From Actinomycetes bacterium (GTDB lineage: Bacteria > Actinomycetota > Thermoleophilia > BMS3ABIN01), in contig JAJYXB010000015.1 in the NCBI GenBank assembly GCA_021791195.1, forward strand, positions 25,001 through 62,000: a DNA stretch of 37,000 nt, in the 5' to 3' direction. This document shows, in pieces, positions 26,319 through 36,877 of the stretch (positions within the stretch are counted from its first letter, which is position 1; every line of letters starts with the position of its first letter). The position numbers and the translations under genes were made by a program. The notes beneath the pieces are model-generated. The model ran no database searches. It worked only from the letters and a program-made list of their open reading frames with translations, and was not told the origin of the DNA.

Positions 26319-27332
26319 TCAGCTGCCGGCGCGCGCAGCCCGCACCAGCGCGGCGACGTTTTCCGGCCTTGATTCAGGCGGTATTTCACAGCCGGAGGAG
26401 AGCATGAAGCCGCCGCGGCTGTCGAACGCCTCCAGCAGCGCCCCCGCCTTCTGCCCGATCTCGCCGGCGCCGGCCTCCACAAAGGCGACCGACTTGATGT
26501 TTCCGTTCAGACACACCCGCGGCAGCAGCCGGGCCGCTTCATCCGCGTTGATGTAGTAGTCAAAATTTGCTATATCGACCCCCGCGTCGGTGAAGTCCGG
26601 CAGCACCGGCGCGGCGGGTCCGGCCACGTGCAGCCAGTTGGCGGCGGCGCCGGCGGCCTTGAAATCCCCGAAAACCCGGCTCAGGAAAGGCAGCACCTGC
26701 GCGCGGAAAAAATCGGGCGGTATCACCGCCGGTGAGGAGGCGGGGTCGAAGACGATCGGCAGATGCGCGCCGGCAGCGATCTGCTCCCGGCCGAAACGGG
26801 TAACGACGGCGGTGGCGTAACCGAGCAACTGCTCCAGACCGGCAGGATCGTCAACCGAAAGGAAAAGCAGCGCCTCCATGCCCAGCAGCTGCGCCGCCAG
26901 CGTGAAGGGTCCCATCACGCAGCCGACAACCAGCACCTCGCCGTCCAGTTCGCGCCGCATCAACTGGAGCGCCTTGAGCATCTCCGGCATCCGTCCGGCG
27001 CTGCCGGGATCGGGCACTTCCAGCGCATCCCAGTCGCCGCCGGCCGCCAGCGCATGGCGGCTTACCGCCGGATATTGCCCCTCCCGGTAGGTGAGTTCGC
27101 AGCCGGCCGCCTCAGCCTCCACAGAGGCATCCATCATGGAAAAGACGGCGTCGTAGCCATAACGGGACAGCGCCTCAAGCTGGCAGCGGGCCAGCAGCTG
27201 TCCGTCGCGCACGTATTCATTCAGGGGGACGCCGGCGACAGATGCGGCATGGCCGAAGACCTGGGCGATCACCGGCACGCGGTCCGGCCGGCTGAAATTC
27301 AGCGTTTCAACGATGCGCTCGAGGCTGTTCAC
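26319..27332 (-). CDS. UroD-fold methyltransferase (MtaA/CmuA-like) with altered zinc site
   Basis: 337 residues of the uroporphyrinogen-decarboxylase superfamily. It is not HemE: it has MNSLERIVETLNFSRPDRVPV and GCVMGPFTLAAQLLGMEALL of the methylcobamide:thiol methyltransferase branch and sits beside a corrinoid protein. In MtaA/MtbA the thiol substrate is activated by zinc held by H-x-C and a distal Cys. Here the first motif is H235-V-A237, so one Cys ligand is replaced by Ala, while the distal Cys (SSGCEIPPES, C315) remains. The enzyme may therefore bind metal differently or transfer the methyl group to another acceptor. ATG or equivalent start at 27332; a 79-base gap separates it from the corrinoid gene. 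Confidence 0.85.
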   Translation of the reverse strand: MNSLERIVETLNFSRPDRVPVIAQVFGHAASVAGVPLNEYVRDGQLLARCQLEALSRYGYDAVFSMMDASVEAEAAGCELTYREGQYPAVSRHALAAGGDWDALEVPDPGSAGRMPEMLKALQLMRRELDGEVLVVGCVMGPFTLAAQLLGMEALLFLSVDDPAGLEQLLGYATAVVTRFGREQIAAGAHLPIVFDPASSPAVIPPDFFRAQVLPFLSRVFGDFKAAGAAANWLHVAGPAAPVLPDFTDAGVDIANFDYYINADEAARLLPRVCLNGNIKSVAFVEAGAGEIGQKAGALLEAFDSRGGFMLSSGCEIPPESRPENVAALVRAARAGS

Positions 27333-27411
27333 CGGCCCGACTCCGCGAACGCTTTCGGATGATGCTGGCAGACGTGCCCCACGCTTGCATCAGGATGACA
27401 ACCGGAAAAGT

Positions 27412-28053
27412 TCACCGCTGCGCCTCCATGCTTCCATCAAGATAATGCAGAATGTCAAAAGCAGACTCGGCAACGTAGTCAACATTAAGCTGCGCGGCAG
27501 ATGACTGTTTGAGAGCGGCGCCGCCGGCGAGCACTTTCACCCGGGCAAGTCCCCGCTGCCCCAGCTGCGGCCTTACCTGCCTGACCAGCGGGATAACCGG
27601 AGTGATCAGGCCGCTGACAGCCACAGCCGCCGGCTGCTCCATCCCGGCGGTGTCGATCAGCTTCTCCAGCGGGCAATCCTTGCCGCAGTCCACCACGGCA
27701 TAGCCCTTGCCGGTGAGCACCATCTTGAGGATGTTCTTGCCGAGATCGTGGATGTCGCCTTCGAGGGATGCGACAAGGATCTTGCCTTTGACCGAAGGGA
27801 GTTTTTCGCCGTCGGGAAACAGATCCTTCATGACCTCGGTGACGGCGCGGCCGGCCAGCATGATCTCGAGCAGGTTGAACTGCTCCAGGGTGCATTTGCT
27901 GTCCAGCGCAGTCATCGCCGCCTCCACACCGCCGACGACGATCTCCTCGGGCGCCGCGCCGCCTTCAATGAGCTTCCGTGACTGCGCGACAGATTCGGGG
28001 CAGTCGCCCTTGAGCAGCGCCGCGATAAGGTTCTTTATCCTGGGATTAGTCAT
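27412..28053 (-). CDS. Corrinoid-binding methyl-carrier protein (MtaC/MttC-like)
   Basis: 213 residues. The N-terminal helical cap (B12-binding 2, about 5-85, IKNLIAALLKGDCPESVAQSRKLIEGG and LLEIMLAGRAVTEVMKDLFP) is followed by a Rossmann B12 domain with EGDIHDLGKNI. Asp100, His102 and Gly105 form the DxHxxG motif whose His is the lower cobalt ligand. VSGLITPVIPLVRQVRP and VLAGGAAL complete the base-binding loops. The start is the ATG at 28053 (MTNPRIKN); the SD is weak, and the frame is open further upstream without similarity. It is the first gene of the operon. No substrate-specific MtxB methyltransferase is present in the window. Confidence 0.92.
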   Translation of the reverse strand: MTNPRIKNLIAALLKGDCPESVAQSRKLIEGGAAPEEIVVGGVEAAMTALDSKCTLEQFNLLEIMLAGRAVTEVMKDLFPDGEKLPSVKGKILVASLEGDIHDLGKNILKMVLTGKGYAVVDCGKDCPLEKLIDTAGMEQPAAVAVSGLITPVIPLVRQVRPQLGQRGLARVKVLAGGAALKQSSAAQLNVDYVAESAFDILHYLDGSMEAQR

Positions 28054-28106
28054 TTCAGCAAGTGGATGCCGGGCCGAGACACGCTCGCCACGATAACGGG
28101 ACACCT

Positions 28107-28129
28107 TAAGTACACTTATGACAATTATA
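28107..28129 (-). promoter_or_regulatory. Promoter and palindrome upstream of the corrinoid operon
   Basis: A perfect -10 TATAAT (28129-28124, minus strand) lies 71 bases before the corrinoid gene, with only a weak -35 (CCCACA at 17 bases). Just after it, near the expected transcription start, TAAGT and ACTTA (28118-28107) form a short inverted repeat with a 2-base centre. A repressor site is possible but not shown. Confidence 0.45.
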
Positions 28130-28300
28130 ATGCATGGTTCGCTGATTGTGGGAACCGGCACTGCCGGCGACTGCGACGCACGTCCTTCACCGAGCCCACT
28201 GTCCGCTTCCACCGGACAGACCGGACACCGGCAACTCATCTCTGGAAAAATGGATCCCAAACGGGGGGCAGGAAGGTGACAGGGCCGGCAAGCCCTGGCT

Positions 28301-28663
28301 TTAAGCGGCTTTCCCGCCGCGATGGGTTTCAAGATACTGCTGCAGCGCCACGGCATTGTTGTGCTCGGCGTCGCGAGCGCCGAAGAGGAGGATGACCTTG
28401 CCCTGGCGTTCATGTTCCAGCAGCCTGGCGACCTCCCCCTGCCGCTGTTTCAGCTCGCGGAAGTAGCGCTTGCGGAACTCGTCCCATTTTCCGGGATCGT
28501 GTGCGAACCACTTGCGCAGCTCGCTGCTGGGCGCGATGTCTCGCAGCCAGAGATCGGGCTTGACCTCTTCCTTTTTCAGGCCGCGCGGCCACATGCGGTC
28601 CACCAGGACCCGGTAGCCGCCTGCCCGCCGCTTCTCGTCGTAGACTCTGCGGGTCTCGAACAT
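28301..28663 (-). CDS. DUF488 family protein
   Basis: 120 residues, full length for the family, of unknown function. The motif VLVDRMWPRGLKKEEVKPDLWLRDIAPS (about 18-45) and the following ELRKWFAHDPGKWDEFRKRYFREL are diagnostic, as is ILLFGARDAEHNNAVAL near the C-terminus. The ATG at 28663 has GGAGG 8 bases upstream; the frame is open to 28807 but that part shows no similarity. It is monocistronic in appearance, between the corrinoid operon and the MFS gene. Confidence 0.88.
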   Translation of the reverse strand: MFETRRVYDEKRRAGGYRVLVDRMWPRGLKKEEVKPDLWLRDIAPSSELRKWFAHDPGKWDEFRKRYFRELKQRQGEVARLLEHERQGKVILLFGARDAEHNNAVALQQYLETHRGGKAA

Positions 28664-30565: not shown

Positions 30566-31375
30566 TCAGGGATTCGCGTCCCAGCGGAACCATTTGATGC
30601 CGATCCCGGCGAACACGATGATGTAGCCGACGCTGACCAGCGCCGCCAGCGAAGTGGCGCCGCTCCACGAAGTGGACATCACGCCCGAGAGCAGGTTGTT
30701 GATGACCCCGTAGGGCGACCACGTGGCGGCCGTCTGCATGCTGGCTCCCAGTTTCCCGGACTCGCCCACCAGCCCGAAGATGATCAGCCCGATGAAGACG
30801 AAGCGGCCCAGAGCATTGACGGTCTCGGCGGATTTTATCAGCCCCACCAGCGCCTGGCCGATGCTGAGGAACATCGCCGCGCCGATGATGGTCACGGCCA
30901 TGGTCAGCGCATAACCGGCGGGCGACAGGATTATCCTGTTCACCTGGCTGGCAGTAACCAGGATGACCGCGGCCATCGTCAGGCAGGCGCCCACCTGAAC
31001 GGTGATGCGGCTGGCCATGATCGTCCAGGACGGAGCCGGCGACACCCGCAGACGCTGAAACACCCCTTTTCGCGATCCCTCGTAGTTGATATCGAGTATC
31101 CCAGAATCGAAAAAGATGCCAGCGCAAATGTAATAATTGAGGCCAAGAGCATCGCGTCACTCGAAACCTCAGCCCGCTTCGCGGTCAGCAGGATGAACAG
31201 CGGCAGCACCATGCCAATGATGAGCGAGCGCTTTCTGCAGCAGGACGATAAAATCTGCCTGCAGCAGCGAGGACAGCGTCCGGCGCAGGGATGGCTGAAT
31301 ACTTCCCCGCCCGCTCACGCCGGCAGTATTAACAACCGCATTTACCACATCAACAGTGTCAACCTGTTCATTCAC
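30566..31375 (-). pseudogene. ABC-2 type permease, broken by frameshifts
   Basis: Membrane half of an ABC exporter. The original start is probably the GTG at 31375, overlapping the ATPase stop. Similarity runs in three frames: LRRTLSSLLQADFIVLLQ, then (shift near 31222) RSLIIGMVLPLFILLTAKRAEVSSDAMLLASIITFALASFSILGYSISTTRDREKG, then (shift near 31068) FQRLRVSPAPSWTIMASRITVQVGA through six hydrophobic helices to WFRWDANP. The charged RDREKG-FQRLRVSP loop is typical of the family before helix 3. Two frameshifts in one gene next to truncated neighbours point to decay rather than sequencing error. Confidence 0.75.
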
Positions 31376-31586
31376 GCAGATCACTCCCGGTCAGACCGAT
31401 GAAAACGTCTTCCAGCGTCACTTCGCCGTGCGCCGCGCCGCGAACGGCGGGATCGTCCCTGTGCTTGGCTATCAGCCCCGCTGGCGTATCCGTGGCCAGG
31501 ATCTTCCCGTGATCGATGATCGCCACCCGGTCGCAGACCGCCTGGGCCTCCTCCATCGAATGCGTGGTCAGCAGGATGCTGTGCCC
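31368..31586 (-). pseudogene. C-terminal fragment of an ABC exporter ATPase
   Basis: 72 residues from GHSILLTTHSMEEAQAVCDRVAIIDHGKILA (H-loop onward) to FIGLTGSDLRE. Walker A, the signature motif and Walker B are missing, so it cannot hydrolyse ATP. The frame continues upstream to 31874, but that part is not ABC-like: 31587-31705 is of unknown origin and then overlaps the PhzF-like gene in another frame. It belonged with the permease remnant that follows. Confidence 0.8.
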
Positions 31587-31705
31587 GCCGGCCTGGCTTC
31601 CATACATGCGTTTCAGGTCTAGCTCAGTGATGTTCTCCCCGGGGATTGCCATCAACCGACAAGCATGGTTCGTCGAGCCTCGAACTTCAAAGAACAGGAG
31701 GGAGC

Positions 31706-32494
31706 CTAGCAGCACACGAAGATGCGTCCCACAAGATAAGTGACGGCTCGGCCGCCAATTGAAACGCGATCGCCGTCGAGAGCACAGTAGAGCTCTCCTC
31801 CCCGCCGGGAAGCCTGGAATGCGCGTAGCCGGTCTTTGCCCAGACGCGCTGACCAGTAAGGGACCAGGGCGCAATGCGCGGAACCGGTGACGGGATCTTC
31901 ATCGACACCCAGCCTGGGCGCAAAAGCACGGGAGATAAAATCATGGTTGTGGCTGTCGCCCATTGCGGTGACGATCACAAGATCTGCCTCGATCCGCCCA
32001 AGCGCCGCGAAATCTGGCCGCAAGCAGGTGACCTGCCGGGCGCTATCGTACATGCACAAGAGGAATCCCTTGACTCTTGCGGTAACTGCCGGCGCCAGAC
32101 CTAGAGCATCGGTCAGGCCGAGGGGCGGCTGGCATTCCGATGGCGGCATCGCCGGAAAATCCATCATCAGCATGTCGTCGCGGCGCTCGACCCACAACTC
32201 GCCACTGCGAGTCTGAAAGCACACCGAACTTAAATCCCGCCCGGGCGATAACGCTTCGAAAATGATATGCGCGCTCGCCAGCGTGGCATGCCCGCAAAGG
32301 TCGACTTCGACTTTCGGCGTGAACCAGCGCAATTCGTAACCGGAGTCATTTCCCACCAGGAACGCCGTTTCGGACAGGTTGTTCTCCGCCGCAATATTCT
32401 GCAACAGCCTGTCTGGCAACCACTCTTCCAACAGGCAGACAGCTGCGGGGTTCCCTGTGAAAGGAGCACCGGCAAAAGCGGCCACCTGGTACAT
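31706..32494 (-). CDS. PhzF-family isomerase/epimerase-like protein
   Basis: 262 residues of the PhzF/diaminopimelate-epimerase-like fold. The N-terminal MYQVAAFAGAPFTGNPAAVCLL, the catalytic Glu42 in NNLSETAFLV, WFTPKVEVDLCGHATLASAHIIFE (about 57-80), and the C-terminal DEDPVTGSAHCALVPYWSARLGK are diagnostic. The physiological substrate is unknown for most members. The ATG at 32494 has AAGGA 8 bases upstream and is preferred to the TTG at 32518. It is intact although its neighbours on one side are fragments. It lies 159 bases after the FrnE-like gene. Confidence 0.9.
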   Translation of the reverse strand: MYQVAAFAGAPFTGNPAAVCLLEEWLPDRLLQNIAAENNLSETAFLVGNDSGYELRWFTPKVEVDLCGHATLASAHIIFEALSPGRDLSSVCFQTRSGELWVERRDDMLMMDFPAMPPSECQPPLGLTDALGLAPAVTARVKGFLLCMYDSARQVTCLRPDFAALGRIEADLVIVTAMGDSHNHDFISRAFAPRLGVDEDPVTGSAHCALVPYWSARLGKDRLRAFQASRRGGELYCALDGDRVSIGGRAVTYLVGRIFVCC

Positions 32495-32653
32495 TTTCAG
32501 TTCCTTACGCTGGATCAAAAAACTCCTCTGACAGCTGCAAGATCATGCTTGCCTTGACCCGCAGCGCGAGCCGGGATCGGGGATGATCTCGTCTGTCGCA
32601 CCCCAGCCGCCATGCACGAGCGTCAGCTACGTTCCCGCGGCTGTTTCTCATCG

Positions 32654-33283
32654 TCAAAAAGTGGCCCGGGCATTCTCACCCTTGGCCAGGCGCGCGATCG
32701 CTTCCTCAAACACATCATCCCGCTGGGCGCCCACGATCTTCACCTCGTCGTTGATAAAGTAGGTGGGCGCAGCGTGCACCCCGGCTTCGCGGGCGGCGGC
32801 GTCCTGCTCGGTGACAGTGGCTGCGAACTCACCACTCTCGGTGCGGCGCTGCATCTCGCCGGCGTCGATGCCCGCGTCAACCGCTGCCTGGCGCAAAACC
32901 TCCCAGTCACTGATGTCCCGGCCCTCGGCGAAAAACTGGTGAAGGACAGCGCGGTGAAACTCGCCGCCCTTTCCCACAGAATTCGCATACTCGCTGGCCT
33001 CCAGCGCCCGGCGTGAGTTGGGAATGTGCGCGGAGAACTTGATGGGCAGACCTAGCTCCTGAGCCCTGGCCCGCAAGCGCTGGCGGGCTTCCTCTCTTTC
33101 GGGGGTGGCCCGGTACCACAACGACAGCTCCACCCCTTCCGGCGGCATGTCCGGCCGCAGCATAAAAGGCTTCCACTCAATAACCGCCCCGGGATGTTTC
33201 TCCTTAACGTGGTCGGCCGCGACCTGGCCGATGTAGCACCACGGTCAGATGTAGTCAGAATAAATGGTCAACTTGACGGTCAT
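32654..33283 (-). CDS. FrnE/DsbA-like oxidoreductase, candidate selenoprotein (UPWC active site)
   Basis: Read from the ATG at 33283, which has a very strong SD (AGGAGGAAGGA), the frame is MTVKLTIYSDYI, then TGA, then PWCYIGQVAADHV and onward to 32654. In FrnE-like DsbA proteins this place is CPWC, so the TGA sits at the first active-site Cys (position 13, with Cys16 kept). The rest is an intact family member: EWKPFMLRPDMPPEG, a helical insert, and APTYFINDEVKIVGAQRDDVFEEAI with the cis-Pro. The total is 209 residues with Sec, a normal length. A SECIS-like hairpin follows the TGA directly. The internal ATG at 33163 has no SD and would lose the active site. The alternative is a nonsense mutation in a decaying region. 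Confidence 0.78.
33208..33243 (-). promoter_or_regulatory. Candidate bacterial SECIS element
   Basis: On the minus strand, one base after the in-frame TGA (33247-33245), CGTGG (33243-33239) pairs with CCACG (33212-33208) and TCGGCC (33231-33226) pairs with GGCCGA (33218-33213). A 7-base bulge lies on the 5' side. The apical loop is AGGTCGC, and its GGT begins 20 bases after the TGA. A short stem with a GGU-type loop at this distance is the form recognised by SelB in bacterial selenoprotein mRNAs. Confidence 0.65.
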
Positions 33284-33417
33284 TCCTTCCTCCTGTTCCT
33301 GTTCTGCCGGCTACGTCCCCATATTGTTATATTACCCGTTTCGACGGAACAGCGAGAGCAGCATCAAGAATTTCGCGAGCCGAAAACCATTATTGCTGAA
33401 AGAATGATCTATGCGTC

Positions 33418-33972
33418 GTGAGCGGCATCGCCTATGCGGCGCCGCGTGTCAACAACGACATGACCAGAGGCATCATCAACCGCTTCAGGTCCATGCCGAT
33501 CGCGCCCTCATCCATCCTGGGAGGCCACGCGGTTTCATCGGTGCTATCCAACCTTTTTTCGGTGCTGCTGGTAATTCTGGTTTCTTTTCTGATCGGCTTC
33601 CGCCCCGCCGCCGGCATCGCAGAGTGGTTGATTTTCGGCGGGATCCTGCTCTTGTTCACACTTGCCACGACCTGGCTCGCGATAGTCTTCGGCTTGCTCG
33701 CCAGGAGTGCGGAGGGCGCCGGCGCGTTCAGCTACATTCTGCTGATGCTGATTTTCGTAAGCTCGGCTTTCACGCCGGCGAGTTCGATGACCCCGTCACT
33801 GCGGGCCTTCGCGGACAACCAGCCAATGACGCCGATCGTCGAGACAATGCGCTCCCTTCTGGTTAACGGCAGCGCAGGTCCAAAAGTCTGGGTCGCAGTA
33901 CTTTGGTGCGCCACATTACTGATCGTCTCGTATCTGCTTGCGTTGAGGATTTACCGGAACAAGACGGTTTAG
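33418..33972 (+). pseudogene. C-terminal fragment of an ABC-2 permease (DrrB-like)
   Basis: 184 residues on the plus strand. It starts with MSGIAYAAPRVNNDMTRGIINRFRSMPIAPSSILGG, the cytoplasmic loop that in full DrrB-like permeases follows the second membrane helix, and then has four hydrophobic helices and LRIYRNKTV at the end. The first 70-80 residues of the family are missing and no ATPase gene is near on this strand. The GTG at 33418 has no SD. It is a different permease from the one at 30566-31375, so two exporters have left remnants here. Confidence 0.7.
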
Positions 33973-34516: not shown

Positions 34517-35224
34517 CTATTCTTTCGTTAACACCAGCTGCATCGTGCCTGAACCATTACAGGTGATGCCTGATGTGGAGAGGCACGGATATGAGGAGAG
34601 CGTGGCCGTCGCCATATAAGTCTGGCCTTTACGTGTCTTGCACTTCGTCGTCGTGGTACTGTCAGACGTGGTTGTTTTGGTCGAGCAACCGGCAATAGTC
34701 TGGGGTATAAAACCGTCTGACGTGAACCCGAAGAGGCCCTGCAGCGGCGGCGTTGGCTGGCTCTCCGTGAAGGTAGTCGGCGGGCCAATGACCAGCGTCA
34801 TTTGAAGTGGGCCGCCGTTTGACCCGGACGCGGATATAGCATGCCCCCCGCATTCCATCGAGACGACGCCGAAGTTCATCCCCTGCAGCGTCACGATGAT
34901 GGGTTGGTGTGATATATCGATCTCAGTCGGTTGAACTGTCAATGGCAACGAATGCGGCATGCTGCCAGTGCATCCTGGGACATGTGGAACAAGCGTCCAT
35001 AATATGGAGCCCGAACCACTCAGTATGTAGTTCCCTTTGGGAAGGCCCTTGATCTTCAGCTTGGTGGTTTTTGTCGTACTGGTAGCTGCGGTGGAGGTGG
35101 TATTTGTTGTAGTTGGCTGCTGGCCGCCGCCGCACGCCGTTAAGGCAACCGATAAGAACAGGAATAGCGCCCCCCAAATAAGGAGAAGCCGTGCCGAACC
35201 GCCGCTGTTCAGAGTAGTTTGCAT
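34517..35224 (-). CDS. Putative secreted lipoprotein with Thr-rich linker
   Basis: 235 residues. The N-terminal signal (RLLLIWGALFLFLSVALTAC) ends in a lipobox LTAC with the lipidated Cys at about residue 31, followed by GGG and a Thr/Ser-rich linker (about 36-55). The mature part looks like one or two beta-rich units with several Cys (PGCTG, MECGG, AGCST, TKCKT, YPCLS, ITCNG) that could form disulfides. A second Thr-rich run (KTTTSDSTTTTK) lies near 190. No family is recognised. The ATG at 35224 has AGGAGG 6 bases upstream, so expression is likely. It is probably a surface-anchored protein of the cell envelope. Confidence 0.8.
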   Translation of the reverse strand: MQTTLNSGGSARLLLIWGALFLFLSVALTACGGGQQPTTTNTTSTAATSTTKTTKLKIKGLPKGNYILSGSGSILWTLVPHVPGCTGSMPHSLPLTVQPTEIDISHQPIIVTLQGMNFGVVSMECGGHAISASGSNGGPLQMTLVIGPPTTFTESQPTPPLQGLFGFTSDGFIPQTIAGCSTKTTTSDSTTTTKCKTRKGQTYMATATLSSYPCLSTSGITCNGSGTMQLVLTKE

Positions 35225-35659: not shown

Positions 35660-35971
35660 GTGAGATTTCTACGAGAAAATCTAAGCGCTCTTGCGCTTTG
35701 CGATGAAATCACTAATCTTAGGAACTAATTCTATCGGTACTTCAATAACCGTCGATCTACAGCGTCAAATGCAGCCTCGTTCTCAGCAAGGGCCTCCTCT
35801 TCTATCTGTTCCTCGTAATAGGCGAGACTCGCTCAACGCGATCATCTACCCATCTTTTGGGGAATTTGCTTTTTTAACTTCATGGCTTTTTATCTTTTTC
35901 ATAGTGGAATTGATAGGCTTCATTTATCTCTGCATAGTTTGGCGCTTTTATTTTTTCATATCTTCAGAATA

Positions 35972-35998
35972 TTGACAGTAGTTTTTAAGCGTTATAGT
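35972..35998 (+). promoter_or_regulatory. Candidate promoter of the cyclase-like gene
   Basis: TTGACA at 35972-35977 and TATAGT at 35993-35998, 15 bases apart, which is a little short but both hexamers are good. It lies about 43 bases before the ATG at 36041 and supports that start over the longer open frame from 35882. Confidence 0.5.
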
Positions 35999-36040
35999 TT
36001 TCGGAATCGATATGGTTACGAACCAGGAGCGTGGAATCCT

Positions 36041-36877
36041 ATGATACGAACCATCGTAAAAATTGATTTATGCGGTAGCAAGAAATTTGCTACCGCAAGA
36101 GAAACTGAGAATCCCGAAATTAGAGCAGAAACTCTCAAGTCTCTTTTATCTGTGTCGCAGCAAACATTTCCGCAAGCTTCCGAACCCTACCCTGCAGGTA
36201 GCTACTATAAAGCTGAAGGCGACGCCGTTTATTATGTTCTTGAAAAACCAACCGTTGCATTACGCGCGTCGATAGAATTTATGCAGAAGTGGTTCAATCA
36301 ATTGCCAAACTTCCCAGAGTGTCGAGTAATCCTGGAACGAGGCGACATCCAAGAAGTGAAGGTGCCGTCTAAAATGGAATTGACTGGCAAGCCGTTCGAG
36401 AACATTGCAGTAATTGAAAAAAATTTAGGAGATGGAAAAATTTTCCTAACAGACAGTGTTTTCAAGAACGTTGATCAAACAGTTTCGAAGTTTTCATTTC
36501 TTTTCCCAAAAAAAATACATGCAGAAACAATAAGAATCTATTGGGTTGATTTCCTTGACCCGCGGACGGTTGCCGATTCCAGTCTTATTCATGCTTTATT
36601 TATTGCCCATCCTAAGGCAGCTGAGGCAAGAAGCCGGGTATTTGAATTATTTATGTTGGAATGTCTCTTAGAGAAAATGAAGGCGGTTACCACGGCTGAA
36701 ATCTTGGAATGGGGTAAAAGTAAGAATTATCCAATGCCCACATCGGAAATACTATTACATGTGGTTAAGGGATCGGATTTTCTAGATTTCGATAATTCAA
36801 CACAAACTATTTCTATAAAGCCCATTGCAAAGAAATATGTTGAAAGTGCTCAAGCTGACTTTTTAAATGCTAAATGA
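36041..36877 (+). CDS. Class III nucleotidyl-cyclase-like protein with C-terminal helical/winged domain, 3' end cut by IS
   Basis: 278 residues. The N-terminal 150 resemble a class III cyclase homology domain: IVKIDLCGSKKF carries the first metal Asp (D9), YYKAEGDAVYYVL (56-67) the second (D61) with the K-x-x-G-D spacing, and ELTGKPFENIAVIEKNLGDGKIFLTDSVF (113-141) aligns with the usual VNxAAR region. The Asn is kept (N121) but the transition-state Arg position is Ile125, so activity is uncertain. Residues 195-275 (VFELFMLECLLEKMKAVTTAEILEWG and following) look like a winged helix. The stop TGA is the first three bases of an IS3-type terminal repeat, so the true C-terminus may be longer. AT-rich codon use unlike the core genes suggests transfer. 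A Pycsar-type cyclase is one possibility. Confidence 0.6.
   Translation: MIRTIVKIDLCGSKKFATARETENPEIRAETLKSLLSVSQQTFPQASEPYPAGSYYKAEGDAVYYVLEKPTVALRASIEFMQKWFNQLPNFPECRVILERGDIQEVKVPSKMELTGKPFENIAVIEKNLGDGKIFLTDSVFKNVDQTVSKFSFLFPKKIHAETIRIYWVDFLDPRTVADSSLIHALFIAHPKAAEARSRVFELFMLECLLEKMKAVTTAEILEWGKSKNYPMPTSEILLHVVKGSDFLDFDNSTQTISIKPIAKKYVESAQADFLNAK

Follow-up and report, generated by a model that had tools for sequence, protein, structure and literature searches.

The locus at 32654..33283 on the minus strand of the 37,000-nucleotide stretch of DNA analyzed here (the window) raises the question of whether an in-frame TGA close to the start of a DsbA/FrnE-like gene is a nonsense mutation or a codon for selenocysteine (Sec). 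Direct reading of the minus strand identified aacaggAGGAGGaaggaATG at 33283, with the Shine-Dalgarno sequence AGGAGG at 33288..33293, approximately 5 nt upstream of the ATG. The 12 codons that follow, MTVKLTIYSDYI, lead to the inner TGA at 33245..33247, which would be residue 13, and directly after this codon come CCG TGG TGC (PWC), the last being the codon for Cys16 (33236..33238). Between the inner TGA and the terminal TGA at 32656-32654 there are 196 sense codons, and the whole coding region comprises 209 residues plus the stop. The mechanical list of open reading frames begins only at 33163 and contains a 169-amino-acid ORF (32654..33163, minus strand) in which the active site is lost, as would be expected from ordinary gene calling. 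In both respects, the preliminary description of this locus was confirmed. The length of the open frame is in itself no proof of translation through the TGA and does not reach improbability, since 36 of the 1,132 TGA triplets (3.2%) in this window of 62% GC are followed by a frame at least as long. What takes the case beyond chance is the homology that extends across the TGA, the presence of TGA at the same codon in 54 homologues, and the behavior of a downstream hairpin under synonymous recoding.

Residues 5-197 of the read-through product match the Pfam DSBA family (E 2.7e-37). Among solved structures, the closest in sequence are the entries for D. radiodurans FrnE (DR_0659; PDB 5cnw, 5co3, and 5cp1; phmmer E 4e-19), with which the product shares whole-length homology, the fold, an aligned CPWC motif, and a predicted cytoplasmic location. 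The TGA is aligned with Cys22, the first cysteine of CPWC in D. radiodurans FrnE, and the alignment with the Cys forms likewise agrees with the earlier proposal that the TGA replaces exactly this residue. When the window protein was modeled with AlphaFold together with 25 Cys homologues, the pLDDT was 94.5 and the pTM 0.90, and the top Foldseek matches of the model were FrnE structures 5co3, 5cp1, and 5xwh (TMq 0.85-0.87), together with a Streptomyces DsbA-family protein. By Pfam and Foldseek, the DsbA-like domain spans the whole protein, and the active site reads UPWC (Sec for the first Cys of CP(W/F)C) with a conserved cis-Pro, P173, as is characteristic of the FrnE subfamily (PF01323, cd03024). 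Both redox residues of UxxC, including Cys16, the predicted resolving cysteine, are invariant in the homologue alignment, and the cis-Pro is nearly so. No signal peptide was apparent on reading the window protein, consistent with the cytoplasmic FrnE subfamily. However, D. radiodurans FrnE has a cysteine where the window protein is predicted to have Sec, and its C-terminal CX4C regeneration motif is missing here, the translation containing no cysteine beyond residue 16. This motif occurs in many FrnE members but is not obligatory, and it is also absent from D. maricopensis FrnE. None of the NCBIfam selenoprotein models scored above its cutoff (the best was NF041057, with 43.9 bits against a cutoff of 190), so public annotation probably carries a shortened version of the gene.

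The homologue set (n = 104) was assembled from a class-wide survey of 399 genomes and from loci of survey and named genomes; the contig scan for named relatives used a pattern demanding Cys, so that only Cys forms were returned by it. TGA occupies the position of the first Cys of CP(W/F/Y)C in 54 of the 104 homologues and TGC or TGT in 49 or 50, one homologue being a fragment that does not cover the codon. Neither TAA nor TAG was found at the active-site codon in any of the 104 sequences, and no inner stop was found elsewhere. TGA is present at the same codon in five further copies within the genus (two of them in genome G001) and in five copies elsewhere in the family, and all 10 copies compared from the protein's own family have kept it. 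Nearly every other conserved residue in this family is spelled with two to four synonymous codons, and synonymous sites are saturated. Downstream of the TGA, dN/dS within the genus is 0.08 to 0.13.

These observations bear on two readings in which the TGA would not be translated. The first is that a nonsense mutation broke a former CPWC gene, leaving remnants or a product initiated from the ATG at 33163. An ordinary ORF does begin there, and the truncation of the flanking ABC transporter genes indicates that decay occurs nearby. However, the same TGA has been kept in 54 homologues of several families, and a nonsense mutation would not persist in all 10 copies of the family across saturated synonymous divergence and under a dN/dS of about 0.1, with the downstream hairpin maintained as well. 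The close relatives carry TGA, not a cysteine codon followed by decayed codons, and we regard the pseudogene reading, refuted by this conservation, as extremely improbable. The second reading, a sequencing or assembly error that turned TGC or TGT into TGA, draws on the origin of the window in a single MAG. It is refuted by the independent assemblies of sister species, all of which have TGA, including both paralogues of G001, and its probability is negligible. The window protein shares 89% identity with one of these G001 paralogues (C42:1786-2403; L003) and 79% with the other (C18:14675-15295; L159).

If the TGA is translated, the source genome should be able to decode it, and the preliminary description had made its proposal depend on the presence of selA, selB, selC, and selD. 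All four were found. The source genome (2.15 Mb, 97% complete) contains selA (E 3.6e-149), an adjoining ORF for a SelB-like GTPase that was identified by reading and not by profile, and a tRNA-Sec with the anticodon UCA (70.6 bits). Its SelD has an in-frame TGA at the active-site motif GSGUACK (L064:1531-1533, in contig C10 of G000) and, judged from its sequence, is itself a selenoprotein. tRNA-Sec and SelD were also identified in most relatives tested, among which a clear SelD was not found in G014 and the tRNA-Sec matches were only weak in G003, G015, and G017. Across the homologue set, selA was present in 44 of the 54 genomes with Sec forms versus 6 of the 37 examined genomes with Cys forms (Fisher p 5e-10, a figure that overstates independence because the genomes are related). 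The 10 Sec-form genomes in which selA was not found are mostly incomplete MAGs (69 to 93%).

Since the comparative evidence clearly says that the TGA is translated, a genome-wide reassignment of TGA (e.g., to Trp or Gly) or a read-through of UGA without Sec also has to be considered. However, TGA terminates ordinary genes in the window, namely those for the URO-D family, B12-binding, and MFS proteins as well as the Sec-FrnE gene itself, and the in-frame TGA always falls at a catalytic cysteine. With a complete Sec gene set and a hairpin in place, decoding as anything other than Sec appears very unlikely.

Sec insertion in bacteria would further call for a SECIS element (bSECIS), and a hairpin with a GGU-containing loop had been noted at a suitable distance from the TGA. 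Such a hairpin is present and is predicted to form the apical part of a bSECIS at 33213..33231 (minus strand), with a 6-bp upper stem, UCGGCC (33231-33226) paired with GGCCGA (33218-33213), and a 7-nt loop, AGGUCGC (33225-33219), beginning 19 nt past the UGA. A weaker and less conserved lower stem, CGUGG/CCACG (33243-33239 with 33212-33208; overall 33208..33243, minus strand), closes a 5' bulge. The published rules describe an apical loop of 3 to 9 nt, an upper stem of 4 to 16 bp, a G within the first two loop positions, a UGA-to-loop distance of 16 to 37 nt, and a minimum free energy of at most -7.5 kcal/mol (PMC13188914). The window hairpin, with its loop G and an energy of -16.2 kcal/mol, lies within all of these sequence and structure limits.

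Folding energy was dropped as a test for SECIS elements, as it does not discriminate in GC-rich coding sequence: the single-sequence energy of the hairpin was not significant (z of -0.9 to -1.7), and the rank of the constrained-hairpin energy against synonymous shuffles separated Sec from Cys forms only weakly (p 0.01). The length of the stem at a fixed site was much more informative. An admissible hairpin with its best loop start 18 to 20 nt after the codon was identified in 42 of the 54 Sec forms versus 7 of 50 Cys forms (p 3e-11). In a shuffle test in which codons were exchanged with other synonymous codons of the gene (2,000 shuffles, stem length at the fixed site), the mean stem of the Sec forms was 4.20 bp versus 1.17 bp after shuffling, none of the 2,000 shuffles reaching the observed value, although the relatedness of the genomes means that these figures, too, overstate independence. 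In the protein's own family, the corresponding means were 6.0 and 1.34 bp, and here, too, the observed value was reached in none of the 2,000 shuffles. The Cys forms, in which the stem is much weaker, showed a small excess as well (3.16 versus 2.34 bp), perhaps because some of them descended from Sec forms. Within the family, 98% of the cells of the apical stem and 74% of those of the lower stem are paired. Most changes in the apical stem turn G-C into G-U, none of them is double, and covariation is slight, a single pair having changed on both sides. RNAalifold applied to the family alignment recovered the apical stem along with a spurious long-range helix, and no compensatory pair was found. 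The proposal of a SECIS element is thus upheld by position, by the published rules, and by the synonymous-shuffle test.

Taken with the machinery and the conservation of the TGA, the hairpin supports the earlier interpretation of the TGA as a site of Sec insertion and not a nonsense mutation. We are highly confident that this is a genuine selenoprotein gene, encoding a stand-alone cytoplasmic thiol/selenol-disulfide oxidoreductase of the FrnE subfamily with a UPWC site and a predicted Sec13.

Selenoproteins of this kind are already known, and the novelty implied by the preliminary description did not survive comparison with the literature. COG2761 is the COG to which FrnE belongs. A "DsbA-like protein" selenoprotein family with UxxC, assigned to COG2761 and comprising nine sequences, has been listed since the 2005 analysis of the Sargasso Sea selenoproteome (PMC1088965). 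A census in 2016 counted 45 genes in 41 organisms (PMC5029168), and "DsbA-like protein form 1", with PF01323 and UxxC, is among the families in a review of 2026 (PMC13188914). By Pfam family and motif, the window protein resembles these published proteins, which share PF01323, Sec in the first position of UxxC, and a bacterial SECIS element directly 3' of the UGA. However, the published sets are small, and the lineage studied here is not named in the texts on DsbA-like selenoproteins that were searched.

In the proposed mechanism, UGA codon 13 would be decoded as Sec by the tRNA-Sec (UCA) delivered by SelB, which would bind the predicted in-frame hairpin with its loop AGGUCGC 19 nt after the UGA, while SelA and the Sec-containing SelD would make the Sec-tRNA. 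The selenolate of Sec13 is predicted to lie at the N terminus of helix 1, facing the loop of cis-Pro P173, and could attack substrate disulfides or thiols, after which Cys16 would resolve the selenenylsulfide. Because the C-terminal CX4C regenerating pair of D. radiodurans FrnE is absent, the electrons would most likely be supplied by a separate thiol, either thioredoxin or a low-molecular-weight compound.

Sec could also be real while the main role differs from general protein disulfide reduction, the protein acting as a selenol oxidase, an isomerase, or a reductase that detoxifies small molecules in the manner of HCCA isomerases or GST-kappa. The Foldseek matches show that the fold is common to HCCA isomerases and GST-kappa proteins. 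To our knowledge, those proteins do not have a CxxC pair, whereas the UxxC redox residues are invariant in the homologues of the window protein and the cis-Pro nearly so. Listeria Lmo1059, a member of the DsbA family with two catalytic cysteines, is a GSSG reductase whose first cysteine is crucial in vivo (PMC10715225), which lends some weight to a small-molecule role; however, it is a Cys enzyme. We consider such a role unlikely as the main one. By analogy with D. radiodurans FrnE and the Listeria GSSG reductase, the Sec-containing oxidoreductase most likely acts reductively in the cytoplasm, as a protection against stress.

The genomic neighborhood gives no operon-based indication of function, since the sister loci share none of the genes that flank frnE in the window. 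Truncated pieces of ABC-2 exporters (30566-31063 and approximately 31368-31605 on the minus strand and 33418-33972 on the plus strand) lie on either side of frnE and of a PhzF-family gene (31706-32518); the permease halves were identified by Pfam and the ATPase tail by reading, and the pieces suggest decayed or rearranged transporter operons. Elsewhere in the window, a URO-D family protein adjoins a B12-binding protein (26319-28413, minus strand), the two being arranged like a corrinoid methyltransferase pair. Also present are a Ser/Thr-rich lipoprotein-like ORF (34517-35224, minus strand) and a 331-amino-acid ORF (35882-36877, plus strand) with no Pfam match.

A maximum-likelihood tree of the homologues requires seven or more exchanges of Sec and Cys. 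Among named organisms, those nearest to the protein's own family clade are Anaerolineales (Chloroflexota), whose Cys forms (L079-L081) are 43 to 46% identical to the window protein. These genomes also carry selA, and TGC stands where the window gene has TGA. On this basis, exchange of the gene between phyla is plausible. Among the public records, a MAG labeled Bifidobacterium breve (L094) has the same FrnE protein as class member G102, and its label is probably wrong. In genus g66, a Cys clade is nested inside the Sec forms. selA was found in the Sec-form genomes G119, G155, G182, and G264 of this genus, with a partial match in G232, and no selA match was found in the Sec-form genomes G173 and G186 or in any of the five Cys-form genomes.

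What is new here is the dense, unmodeled set of Sec-FrnE proteins in a single deep class that is probably actinobacterial and in which Sec and Cys have been switched at least seven times. The placement of the class is a rough one: no 16S gene was found in the source genome, and a 16S fragment from a genome of the same family had its best matches, at about 82%, among plasmid records of Actinomycetota. The data lean, by a little, toward a history in which Sec-FrnE was recurrently gained and lost at the same codon in this class, the SECIS hairpin was re-formed at 19 to 20 nt in distant subfamilies, and loss of the Sec machinery accompanied reversion from Sec to Cys within one genus. Gene callers would omit the first 40 residues and with them the entire active site, so the enzyme is probably misannotated across the class. 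The 54 Sec forms and their close Cys relatives, including one genus that has both forms and differs in selA between them, constitute a good natural test of the retention, gain, and loss of Sec at a catalytic site.
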